Source: Alteromonas stellipolaris (GTDB lineage Bacteria > Pseudomonadota > Gammaproteobacteria > Enterobacterales > Alteromonadaceae). Taken from it: a stretch of 64,000 bases of DNA. The position numbers and the translations under genes were made by a program. How positions within the stretch are numbered: the stretch's first letter is position 1; every line of letters starts with the position of its first letter. The notes beneath the pieces were generated by a model. That model saw nothing but the letters and a program-made list of their open reading frames with translations, did not search any database and was not told the origin of the DNA. The stretch covers positions 1,364,001 through 1,428,000 of the forward strand of contig NZ_CP013926.1 in NCBI RefSeq assembly GCF_001562115.1, in the 5' to 3' direction. This document shows, in pieces, positions 8,712 to 15,006 of this stretch.

Positions 8712-8731
8712 CTGATTTTTCCTGAAATATA

Positions 8732-9078
8732 GACACAATGACTCCCTGTGAAATGCTAGCCTCCGCATTCTCTTGGGTTAGCTTAAAAAGCCACCGGAAC
8801 GCAGCACGGAATCATGATTAGTTTGCTTAAGACTAAATCATTTGGAGGCTAGTATGAACAAACATAACATGATTTTTATCGGGTTGGATACGAATAGAGA
8901 ACTTCACACGAGGTTGCCTATTGTGAAGAGCAGCGTGGAGCACCCCCAGTTCACTTCGGACGTATTCCCTCGTTTAAGGTCAATGTGAAAAAGCTGCTCC
9001 GTCAGTTTGAATCTCAATATCCTGGCGCAACACTTCACGTTATTTATGAAGACACAGCCGACTGGTCGAAGAAACACC
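8732..9078 (+). mobile_element. Remnant of IS1111-type element, copy 1
   Basis: It matches the full element at 12428 from its left end: GACACAATGACTCCCT at 8732-8747, the leader, the GGAGG ribosome binding site and the transposase start at 8854. It has lost two blocks. One internal deletion joins the codons around residue 63 to those around residue 162 of the transposase. A second removes everything from there to the right end. The residual frame is also shifted. It abuts the attC of the methyltransferase cassette at 9079, as an attC-targeted insertion would. It is inactive. Confidence 0.85.
8854..9078 (+). pseudogene. IS110-family transposase fragment (copy 1)
   Basis: It starts MNKHNMIFIGLDTNRELHT, very close to the intact transposase N-terminus, then drifts out of frame. 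DNA matching the GAAGAGCAGCGTGGAGC region follows, and it jumps to the segment encoding YEDTADWSKKH. Both breakpoints show short shared words with the missing parts (TATGAAG and ACC). It is non-functional. Confidence 0.85.
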
Positions 9079-9150
9079 AACGCCTAAAACAGCGGCGCGC
9101 GTTAGTTCGTCCAGCCCGCAGGGCGATGCTGCCTTTGCTTGTGAGGTGAT
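9079..9150 (-). repeat. attC site of the methyltransferase cassette
   Basis: It lies between the methyltransferase stop and the IS remnant. On the minus strand the end reads TTTTAGGCGTTGG, with the AAAGGCAGC-type arm near 9135 partly complementary to GCCGCTGTTTT. The R' end is interrupted by the IS junction. Confidence 0.55.
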
Positions 9151-10432: not shown

Positions 10433-10451
10433 ATTTTACCTTGGTAACTTA

Positions 10452-10662
10452 GACACAATGACTCCCTATGAAATGCTAACCTCCGCATTTTCGTGGGTTA
10501 GCTGAAAGCCACCGGAACGCCGGCCGGAACCATAATTAGTTTGCTTAAGACTATATCATTTGGAGGCTAGCATGAATAAACATAGCATGATTTTTACCGG
10601 ATTGGATACGCGTAAAGAGTTTCAAGAATTTGATTAATAAGAAGAGCAACTAGCTGCGATAA
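10452..10662 (+). mobile_element. Remnant of IS1111-type element, copy 2
   Basis: The left end is shared with the other copies (GACACAATGACTCCCT at 10452-10467), with the leader and the transposase start at 10572. Only about 17 codons follow (MNKHSMIFTGLDTRKEFQEF) before stop codons, then weak similarity to about 10662. The right end and the rest of the element are gone. The leader keeps a GC-rich block (CCGGAACGCCGGCCGGAA) that the full copy lacks, so this is an independent lineage rather than a fresh duplicate. Confidence 0.8.
10572..10626 (+). pseudogene. IS110-family transposase N-terminal fragment (copy 2)
   Basis: The first codons match the intact transposase, including GGAGG at 10562-10566 and the first catalytic Asp of GLDT. 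The frame ends in TAA TAA soon after. It is non-functional. Confidence 0.8.
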
Positions 10663-12406: not shown

Positions 12407-12448
12407 TGCTGTCTCCTTATTCGCCTAGACACAATGACTCCCTGTGAA

Positions 12449-12534
12449 ATGCTAGCCTCCGCATTTTCGTGGGTTAACTGAAAGCCAGTGCCATAATTAG
12501 TTTGCTTAAGACTAGATCATTTGGAGGCTAGCAT
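12449..12534 (+). promoter_or_regulatory. Inverted repeat able to mask the transposase ribosome binding site
   Basis: ATGCTAGCCTCC at 12449-12460 is the perfect reverse complement of GGAGGCTAGCAT at 12523-12534. The second arm holds the ribosome binding site GGAGG and the first bases of the ATG. A transcript entering from outside the element would fold this into a 12-bp hairpin and block translation, while a promoter inside the loop would give an mRNA without the first arm. Similar protection is known in IS10 and IS50. Copies 1 and 2 keep the pair with one changed position each. Confidence 0.65.
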
Positions 12535-13687
12535 GAACAAACATAGCATGATTTTTATCGGGCTGGATACGCATAAAGAGTTTCATGAGGTTGCTTATTG
12601 TGAAGAGCAGCGTGGAGCGACGCCCGTTCATTATGGTCGTATTCCCTCGTCTAAGGTCAGTGTCAAAAAGCTGCTCCGTCAGTTTGAATCTAAATTTCCT
12701 GGCGCAACACTGCACGTGGTTTATGTAGCTGGACCGTGTGGTTATTGGATTTATCGGCTGATTACGAGCTTGGGACATTGTTGCTATGTCGTGGCTCCAT
12801 CTCTTATCCCCAAAAAGCCAGGAGTGCGAATTAAAACCGACCGACGGGATGCGCTTAAACTCGTTAGGGCACTAAAGTCTGAAGACCTTACACCCATCTA
12901 TGTGCCCGAGCCGGAAGATGAAGCTGTGCGGGATTTATCCCGAGCTCGAGAAGCTGCAATGAAGGATTTAAAAGAAGCGAAGTACCAGCTTAAAGCCTTA
13001 CTTTTGCGCAACAACATACGCTATGAAGGCACTGCCAACTGGTCGAAGAAACACCTTCGCTGGCTCACAGAATTGATATTGCCTCATCCAGCTCAGCAAA
13101 TTGTTTTACAGGAACAGCTACAAACCATTGAAGAACGTATTAGGCGATTAGAACGTTTGGAAAATGAATTAACTCACCACGTTCACCAGTGGCGTTATTA
13201 TCCGGTAGTGAAAGCCATTCAGGCGATGCGTGGCGTTCGATTGTTAGTAGCTGTTGGTGTAGTGGCGGAACTTGGTGATTTACATCGCTTCGATCATCCA
13301 AGAAAACTCATGGCATATTTAGGTTTAGTCCCCAGTGAACAATCATCAGGTGGAAAGCGACACTTAGGTGCTATTACTAAAGCGGGAAATGGCCGAGCAC
13401 GGCGTTTGCTGATTGAAGGTGCGCACAGCTATCGGTATCCAGCGAATGTCTCTACCGAATTACAGTTAAGGCAAGAAGGCTTACCCAAAGACATCGTCGA
13501 TATTGCTTGGAAAGCGCAATTGCGTCTGTGCAAACGCAATCAGCGTATGAGTAAAAAAGGTAAACACTACAATTTAATCATTACGGCGATTGCCAGGGAA
13601 ATGGCGGCTTACATCTGGGCCATTGCGAAGGAAGTGGTACTTACACCGGTTAATCCAAAATTACGGTTAAGTAGAGTACCTGCATGA
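12533..13687 (+). CDS. IS110-family transposase (IS1111 group), probably inactive
   Basis: The 384 aa protein is from the ATG preceded by GGAGG. The N-terminal RuvC-like DEDD domain has D12 in GLDTHKEF and D103/D106 in KTDRRDALK, a central coiled coil (about 120-225), and a C-terminal domain with AYLGLVPSEQSSGGKR, which contains the conserved Ser region of the family (SSGGKR). The segment that normally reads YEAGPCGYW here reads YVAGPCGYW: residue 65 is Val (GTA at 12725-12727) where the DEDD Glu is expected. The frame is otherwise intact. It may be catalytically dead. Confidence 0.9.
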   Translation: MNKHSMIFIGLDTHKEFHEVAYCEEQRGATPVHYGRIPSSKVSVKKLLRQFESKFPGATLHVVYVAGPCGYWIYRLITSLGHCCYVVAPSLIPKKPGVRIKTDRRDALKLVRALKSEDLTPIYVPEPEDEAVRDLSRAREAAMKDLKEAKYQLKALLLRNNIRYEGTANWSKKHLRWLTELILPHPAQQIVLQEQLQTIEERIRRLERLENELTHHVHQWRYYPVVKAIQAMRGVRLLVAVGVVAELGDLHRFDHPRKLMAYLGLVPSEQSSGGKRHLGAITKAGNGRARRLLIEGAHSYRYPANVSTELQLRQEGLPKDIVDIAWKAQLRLCKRNQRMSKKGKHYNLIITAIAREMAAYIWAIAKEVVLTPVNPKLRLSRVPA

Positions 13688-13990
13688 TAAACGAGTTTGA
13701 GCTAATGCATTCGGATCGGGCCGCGGGATGTGGCACAACCTACGAGGGCGTTATGATGGCAATCACTTAACGGTGATTGATCTACGAGCATAGACTGATG
13801 AGAAGGTGACCACGGCGAAGTGAGTAAGGTAGGCGCTGTTCACTGAAAGGTGAATAATCCACGAATACCAGCATGAAAACCGACGACATTACTGCCTCAT
13901 CCGGTGCGTTAGCTCATTTATTTTGAATAAAAAAAGAATACTAATTATGGGCTGAAAGAGTGTCAGGGAAGCACTAGTTCAGGGTTGACA
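13688..13990 (+). ncRNA. Predicted bridge/seek RNA region of the IS right end
   Basis: IS1111-group elements are reported to make a guide RNA from the non-coding end after the transposase. Here about 300 bp hold a 7-bp hairpin CAATCAC/GTGATTG (13760-13779), a second hairpin TTCAC/GTGAA with a similar 6-nt loop (13839-13854), and a direct repeat of CTACGAG. Two unpaired words equal the attC R' core: GGGCGTTATG at 13746-13755 and GCGTTAGC at 13906-13913. The host attC is cut at GGCGTT. The RNA itself and its ends are inferred. Confidence 0.45.
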
Positions 13991-14003
13991 AAGGGAGTCA
14001 TAC

Positions 14004-14090
14004 CAACGCCTCGTTAAGAGGCAATAAAACAGTTGGCTAAAATTAGCGACAAAGGAGCAAAAACCAACTGTTTTTTGTCCTTTTAAGCGA
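14004..14090 (-). repeat. attC site of the 14095 cassette, split by the IS
   Basis: The minus strand reads from CGCTTAAAAGG beside the gene through complementary arms (AAACAGTTGG with CCAACTGTTTT) to CTTAACGAGGCGTTGG, where the IS begins. The remaining bases of the R' end (TAGGCG on the minus strand) are found on the other side of the IS at 12422-12427. Joining the two gives a normal GGCGTTAGGCG end. Confidence 0.75.
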
Positions 14091-14094
14091 CTTT

Positions 14095-15006
14095 TTATAA
14101 GCAATCTCCACTAATGTAGCGTTTACTATTGTTAGTTATTCCCTTGTTTTTGTTGATTAAGTTTAATCTGACATTATCCCAATCAAGCAGAAGGGGAACT
14201 TTGGTTTCAACGTCACCTAATGGGTCGTCTGAATCAACGCTATAAGCATAAATCCCTAATGCATTGTTGTCATTAACAGCCTTATACTCTGAAATTACAT
14301 TCTCAATACAATTACGTGACTCTTTTAAATTCTCTTCTATTAGGGCTCTAATTTCACTATGAATTAAGCTTAACTTCTCAATATATTTACGAATAGATTT
14401 AGTCAGGTTTATTTTATCGGTACACTCAGAAAAAACAGGTCTTTTAGAAAACTTAGGGTCTTGTCCTAGCTCTTCACGAGTTGAATAAATTTTTATACCA
14501 TTTTTCATTAATCGTGAATCACCTTCTCCTTCCCAATTGCTGGGTAGTGAGAATGAATGTATAGCTAAACCACAATGTTGAACGTAATTTCTTAAGTTCT
14601 CCATAAATCTATATTCAAAGTGATTGTCATACTCACGGCTGAAGTAATTCAAAGCGGTATTTGAAAAATTATCATTATTAAAATCACATAAGCGTACTTG
14701 TCTTTGCATTTGATCATAATAAAGCTTCGTGGAAGTTAATAGGTTAACTATTCTACGATTTAAAATGGTGCTTATTTGATAAAAGTCATCATATGACTCT
14801 TTATTAAGTACGACCTGCTCAGTAATTTGAAGCAAAAGTTCTTTTTCAAATTCCAAATAATTTGAAATCATTAGATCATACTTTTCTTCGATTGCTTTTG
14901 CCGCAACCATTGAACGCTGTGATTTCTGCAATAGCGCAAAGTGTGAGGCTTCAATAGGTAATATTGCTGTTTTACCTAGAATAAATTGTTTCACGAAATA
15001 TTTCAT
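14095..15006 (-). CDS. Hypothetical protein (integron cassette)
   Basis: The 303 aa protein is mostly alpha-helical, charged and without membrane segments. It starts MKYFVKQFILGKTAILPIEA and contains long helices around 30-110 and 200-250 (IRALIEENLKESRNCIENVI). There is no nuclease, ATPase or toxin motif that I can see. The ribosome binding site is weak. It is strongly AT-rich compared with the flanking chromosome. Its attC was hit by the IS1111 element, but the coding region is intact. Confidence 0.6.
   Translation of the reverse strand: MKYFVKQFILGKTAILPIEASHFALLQKSQRSMVAAKAIEEKYDLMISNYLEFEKELLLQITEQVVLNKESYDDFYQISTILNRRIVNLLTSTKLYYDQMQRQVRLCDFNNDNFSNTALNYFSREYDNHFEYRFMENLRNYVQHCGLAIHSFSLPSNWEGEGDSRLMKNGIKIYSTREELGQDPKFSKRPVFSECTDKINLTKSIRKYIEKLSLIHSEIRALIEENLKESRNCIENVISEYKAVNDNNALGIYAYSVDSDDPLGDVETKVPLLLDWDNVRLNLINKNKGITNNSKRYISGDCL

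Follow-up and report, generated by a model that had tools for sequence, protein, structure and literature searches.

Downstream of its transposase gene, an insertion sequence (IS) in Alteromonas stellipolaris most likely codes for a folded RNA that serves as a guide and aims the element at integron cassette ends. In the window, i.e. the whole stretch of 64,000 nucleotides that was analyzed, this IS occupies positions 12428–14005 (+ strand, as are all features below unless indicated otherwise), and a comparison with its relatives makes it highly probable that it is an IS1111-type element directed to attC sites, which would be placed by an RNA encoded 3' of the transposase gene (tnp) with two guides in one stem-loop domain of 84 nt. 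In the right half of the target, guide T would pair with the top strand, namely AAC and the first bases of the attC R'-L' spacer; in the left half, NTA, guide B would pair with the bottom strand. The transposase, which presumably binds the RNA, would rely on both guides to insert the IS at T(A)|AC in a single orientation. The anatomy, the RNA structure (by covariation) and the covariation of guide and target are observed here; transcription, RNA binding and catalysis are inferred. RNA-guided insertion into attC has already been published; the present analysis adds a quantitative account of how guide and target change together among natural copies, and it corrects the map of the two guides.

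Anatomy of the insertion sequence

The IS measures 1578 bp (GACACA...ATACCA). Its ends, which are common to its relatives, were delimited by comparing the filled site with eight uninterrupted homologous attC sites and are ambiguous by one base, bounds of 12427–14004 being equally valid because a single A is common to the IS and the target. The transposase gene (12533–13687, stop codon at 13685–13687) encodes a DEDD transposase of 384 aa that matches Pfam DEDD_Tnp_IS110 and, in its C-terminal domain, Transposase_20 above the cut-off, and a close relative carries the NCBI name 'IS110 family RNA-guided transposase'. A scan of the ends revealed perfect subterminal inverted repeats of 10 bp at 12434–12443 (ATGACTCCCT) and 13992–14001 (AGGGAGTCAT), which lie 6–7 and 3–4 nt from the respective IS ends, and tnp is followed by a long non-coding stretch of ~318 nt (13688–14005). 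From its transposase domains, repeats and layout, all of them features of IS1111, the element can be assigned to the IS1111 type. The initial annotation had described the right end as non-coding, and indeed no ORF of at least 80 aa is present in 13688–13990.

A second copy of the IS, 76% identical and truncated on the right, is found in the same genome (G000:C1:2365641-2366647). In addition, remnants of related elements, 83% identical and comprising the left end only, lie in neighbouring cassettes (window 8730–9078 and 10450–10648). The first of them stops inside tnp (..AAACACC) and abuts AACGCC directly at 9079; the junction 9078/9079 would fit either the use of an internal site as right end or a deletion with its breakpoint at that very base. 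Elsewhere, two elements with both IS ends (L166 in G030:C37, and L186) either have no intact transposase frame or, at ~275 bp and 0.95 kb, are too short to contain one, which suggests mobilization in trans or decay.

Target site and integron setting

The filled site reads CCTA|GACACAATGACTCCC...GGGAGTCATACC|AACGCC, with CCTA|GACACA as left and CATACC|AACGCC as right junction. In all eight uninterrupted homologues of this attC, which come from seven loci, the site is preceded by a T; it is followed by AAC in 7/8 and by AAT in 1/8. From this comparison of filled and uninterrupted sites, the insertion point is T(A)|AC, i.e. GGCGTT on the cassette strand, in agreement with the cut at GGCGTT of the host attC that had been proposed initially. 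The host attC (14005–14099, − strand, far end approximate) is interrupted at its R' side, the cassette genes lying on the − strand; homologous uninterrupted attC copies match ~14005–14099, and 14005–14110 folds as DNA with z = -2.48. Among the unique copies the right flank begins with AAC in 95 of the 97 that have one, and flank base -2 is T in 104/105, which, judged by these flanks, corresponds to insertion at the attC R' side in a single orientation.

No intI is adjacent to the array: the sole match to TIGR02249 over the cut-off in the 4.9-Mb host genome (461 bits) lies at G000:C1:636416-637363, about 0.73 Mb away. The cassette array in the window is an attC cluster with no integrase next to it and not a complete integron. 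In another genome (L157, G019:C1:547800-561500), three IS copies have left neighbours (12 nt seen) or right neighbours (22 nt seen) in common, combined in various ways; recombination between IS copies that rearranges the cassette array would produce such a pattern.

Structure of the predicted RNA

The region 3' of the transposase was aligned for 36 of 42 prepared lineages (alignment A2); L029, L043, L061, L070, L118 and L119 were excluded because they were too long, owing either to an insert or to an arm misplaced by the regular expression. Three helices were taken from the predicted fold of the window copy and then scored for covariation across A2. Together, 96.6% of their cells are paired and 15/23 pairs show double-sided changes; none of the five measures is attained in any of 500 shuffles, and the signal is lost when the partners are slid. 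The outer stem of the long RNA has 11 pairs between 13699–13709 and 13905–13915, with 99.5% of cells paired and 5 pairs changed on both sides. In the hairpin between the guides (13760–13779, arms 13760–13766/13773–13779), 5 of 7 pairs are changed on both sides and the loop sequence varies in relatives, and in the second hairpin (13839–13854, arms 13839–13843/13850–13854) this holds for 5/5 pairs. The two hairpins had already been noticed in the initial annotation and, given the compensatory changes in both, are real; the third helix, the outer stem, had been overlooked, as had guide B (CATAGAC, 13789–13795).

RNAalifold on A2 predicts in addition a seekRNA core of 84 nt (13730–13813), in which a closing stem of 7 pairs, 5 of them with double changes, is formed by 13730–13736 and 13806–13813 round both guides. 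A conserved RNA structure around the guides, as in a seekRNA, is seen in the covariation across A2; the transcript ends of the core are presumed from this model. The folding energy is not significant for either 106 nt (z = 0.11) or 303 nt (z = -1.48), and Rfam gave no match for the right end at gathering scores. As the predicted energy is unremarkable, the case for an RNA rests on covariation, which argues strongly that the 303-bp right end encodes a structured RNA; the earlier suggestion of a bridge- or seek-type RNA is supported.

Guide T and the right target half

Guide T, GGGCGTT (13746–13752), pairs with AACGCCT (14005–14011), the right half of the target on its top strand. It belongs to one of two words that had been pointed out before, GGGCGTTATG at 13746–13755 and GCGTTAGC at 13906–13913, both of which are present. 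A match of the loops to both halves of the target, 12424–12427 and 14004–14010, had been expected; it holds on the right, with six Watson-Crick pairs and one G-U, and fails in part on the left, where CATA faces CCTA with one mismatch.

After removal of double counts 113 unique IS copies remained, 97 of them with a right flank, and 95 could be used for guide T and 105 for guide B. The guide T test leaves out two copies with the right flanks AGA and AGC, and L083 and one L116 record were dropped as over-long. Several copies come from one genome, and the guide tests are therefore not fully independent. Over the 95 copies, 13746–13749 and target positions +4 to +7 form Watson-Crick pairs in 309/380 cases, compared with a mean of 263 and a maximum of 285 in 10000 shuffles; with one copy per identical guide stretch (lineage), the count is 227/276 versus 193.5 expected. 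All four bases match in 44 copies, three in 35, two in 13, one in 2 and none in a single copy (L144). As 16/95 copies have at most two of four bases matched, pairing beyond AAC is favoured but not obligatory.

The changes can be followed at single positions. With C at 13746 the target has G at +7 (AACGCCG) in 13/38 copies, with G in 0/54 (p = 2.4e-6), and the guide/target pairs AAAAGTT/AACTTTT (L087, L111, L021), GGAAGTT/AACTTCC (L017) and GGGTGTT/AACACCC (L012) are found as well. In an unbiased scan of 2548 pairs of RNA column and target position, 13749/+4, 13748/+5 and 13746/+7 rank 1st, 3rd and 5th for complementarity; these top pairs run antiparallel, as pairing requires, and the 2nd and 4th ranks are cross terms of the same columns. 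The covariation thus concerns +4, +5 and +7, and the guide base facing +6 varies in just 3/99 parsed copies. When each copy was paired with its closest relative of different guide, its own target was the better match in 30 cases and the worse in 4, with 11 ties (p = 3e-6). Across the 95 copies GGGCGTT behaves as a real target guide that changes with its target, and the initial idea that GGGCGTT(ATG) accounts for the attC preference gains support from a guide-target covariation beyond chance.

The same covariation could come about by coincidence if each host had one common attC spacer and the IS lineages differed for other reasons, in which case it would reflect shared ancestry. Guide types do cluster by clade, Alteromonas-type copies having mostly GGGC and many others CGGC; however, the signal survives the nearest-relative swap test, and we regard this explanation as very improbable in view of the hosts themselves. 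The attC pools were counted in three same-genus genomes with several IS copies (G010, G024 and G019), chosen because their arrays were available. A rule ignoring the tested bases yielded 64, 58 and 37 sites, respectively, with 11, 2 and 10 matches in the reversed sequences as a yardstick for false positives. All three pools are mixed, mostly AACTT or AACAC with AACTT as the commonest class, and yet GGGC copies sit in AACGC and AAAA copies in AACTTTT. With each attC counted once, 24/28 bases match in seven targets versus 10.6 expected (p = 6.5e-5), and the first variable base matches in 7/7 targets (p = 7e-5; three G019 copies on one attC counted once), a fit of guide and target that exceeds the expectation from the attC pools of the three hosts. 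In G010, two copies with the guide AAAAGTT are inserted in AACTTTT, and a third, whose guide is GGGCGTT, lies in AACGCCCC; a counterexample is a GGGC-guide copy in AACTTTC in G031 (L158/L038). As seen in these sequences, the guide appears to be retuned naturally between attC spacer classes, even among copies of one genome.

Still less probable is that the transposase protein itself recognizes attC and that the words of the right end are fossils or chance. Protein-only choice would account for the insertion of the 16/95 copies with two or fewer of four bases matched, and AAC hardly varies, so that covariation cannot tell how it is read; however, wherever the target does vary the guide words vary with it, they lie within a compensated RNA fold, and the RNA is essential in tested family members (PMC11187229). 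RNA guidance is the preferred reading. That GGGCGTTATG and GCGTTAGC would be the target and donor recognition loops can practically be dismissed, although both look like an attC R' end, as GCGTTAGC forms the 3' arm of a covarying stem, GCGTTAG is kept with AACTTTT targets and the scan gives it no plausible target partner.

Guide B and the left target half

The second guide would be CATAGAC (13789–13795), with CATA opposite the bottom strand in the left half of the target and GAC identical to the IS left end; its support, which comes from the left flank, is weaker than that for guide T. Base 13790 tracks flank base -3: the flank has C in 17/24 copies with C in the guide and in 14/80 with A (p = 2e-6, one T copy left out). 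The association is weaker per lineage (median p = 0.005, and 0.03 at the 90% quantile), and in the swap test a copy's own flank was better in 18 cases and worse in 3, with 3 ties (p = 7e-4). In the scan, no identity partner of flank -3 ranks above 13790 (z = 3.2, fourth in its list), and columns 13799, 13729 and 13919 reach z = 3.2–3.5 as its complementary partners; with three other columns as high, the scan alone cannot single out 13790. The window copy itself has A in guide B where its own left flank has C. On the RNA, the top-strand guide T (13746–13752) lies 5' of the bottom-strand guide B (13789–13795), which is the order of IS1111.

The word GCGTTAGC, which had been suggested as a second guide, is held within the 3' arm of the outer stem (13905–13915), where it takes part in covarying pairing and has no convincing association with the target. 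As a target guide it was rejected: GCGTTAG is kept in L021, L087 and L111 despite their pairs AAAAGTT/AACTTTT, the last base differing in two of them, and its best scan columns (z = 3.0 and 2.9) depend on 1 and 5 of 69 copies. The hairpin loop TTAACG (13767–13772), considered as a bottom-strand guide, was also rejected, as the loop is GAAA or another word in many relatives. For T bases 3' of GTT, which might have read the left flank, no positive association was seen (p = 0.09, with the opposite sign). When IS-end positions were scanned against the RNA, clade differences dominated, and the result was set aside.

ATACCA at 13865–13870 is identical to the right terminus of the IS (ATACCA, 14000–14005) and is a possible donor word. 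RNA ATATC occurs with terminus ATATC in 9/32 lineages and RNA ATACC with that terminus in 1/40 (p = 0.004), the corresponding figures with a narrower parser being 3/26 and 1/40. The lineages added by the wider parser are presumably those of a diverged group, 45–47% identical, and the association is weak and probably a clade effect.

Comparison with known elements

Tetu and Holmes in 2008 and Post and Hall in 2009 reportedly described ISPa25 and the IS1111-attC group, which have the same attC target. Our diverged group, 45–47% identical (L126–L133, L140–L142), carries GGGCGTTA or CGGCGTTA plus NTAGAC, and the segment separating its guides is much shorter. Like the IS1111-attC group, in which a diverged transposase keeps the seekRNA core (PMC11187229), these relatives also keep the guide-core words.

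For ISKpn4 and ISPst6, the seekRNAs of which are 82 and 86 nt long, insertion into attC was shown in 2024 to be guided by RNA (PMC11187229). They share with the present element the IS1111 layout, an RNA downstream of tnp, the attC target and a top-strand match 5' of the bottom-strand match, and the predicted 84-nt domain is close to their seekRNAs in length. Unlike in these two elements, the RNA here is predicted and guide variants are found across many lineages; the comparison relies on the published description (PMC11187229). When a guide was altered in that work, the donor flank had to match as well (PMC11187229).

Guide and target were also replaced together in the natural redirection of ISEc11/ISXne4, with 3 of 13 bp common (PMC11187229). 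In contrast to that case, in which most of the target was changed, the IS studied here stays in attC and just the R'-L' spacer part is retuned. The nearest solved structure to the transposase is that of IS621 (8wt6, E = 2.9e-5), which likewise combines a DEDD recombinase with a structured RNA. In the IS110 group, as described in PMC11208160, the RNA is encoded at the left end, upstream of the gene, and has a donor loop, whereas in our element it is 3' of the gene and the donor loop is a candidate.

In the partly covered literature on IS1111 and attC, bridge RNA and integrons, Alteromonas integrons and IS110 reprogramming, we found no mention of guide retuning between attC spacer classes; subscription literature was covered thinly, and absence is unproven.

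Possible consequences of retuning

An RNA-guided element that is retuned within one target class bears on reprogramming as well as on the disruption of integron cassettes. The natural data set reads guide and target (95 copies for T, 105 for B) and, for a few genomes, the host background, and therefore the reading range of each guide can be deduced without experiment.

It is conceivable, though doubtful, that attC-seeking IS track the diversity of cassette ends by point changes in the four-base field 13746–13749, so that one host carries differently tuned copies dividing the attC pool. The same tentative view holds that the guide's own DNA (reverse complement CATAACGCCC) is a full-length attC-like target, so that the element would have to avoid or survive self-insertion, and that inserts of 45 bp at that base, found at four loci in three genomes, may have been left by insertions into the guide. 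Read on the − strand, the guide DNA at 13746–13755 (CATAACGCCC) is itself a matched target; nested self-insertion into the guide gave 0 matches to a narrow pattern among the loci examined.

The ~45-bp insert bears a hairpin (GCCTACATGGATGTAGG...) and is located inside guide T, exactly after GGCGTT, in L037, L065, L083 and L186, the last two being from the same genome. In all four, it sits at the base where the IS inserts itself into attC. A looser pattern for the insert had just 1, 1 and 3 matches in the three genomes. The transposases of L037 and L065 are 83% identical to one another, and each is 86–87% identical to that of L029, which is without the insert.

A relative that is 77% identical is annotated between qacEdelta1 and arr-3 on a Klebsiella pneumoniae IncC plasmid (NZ_CP095763.1, L143); its guide is CGGTGTT and its target AACGCCG.
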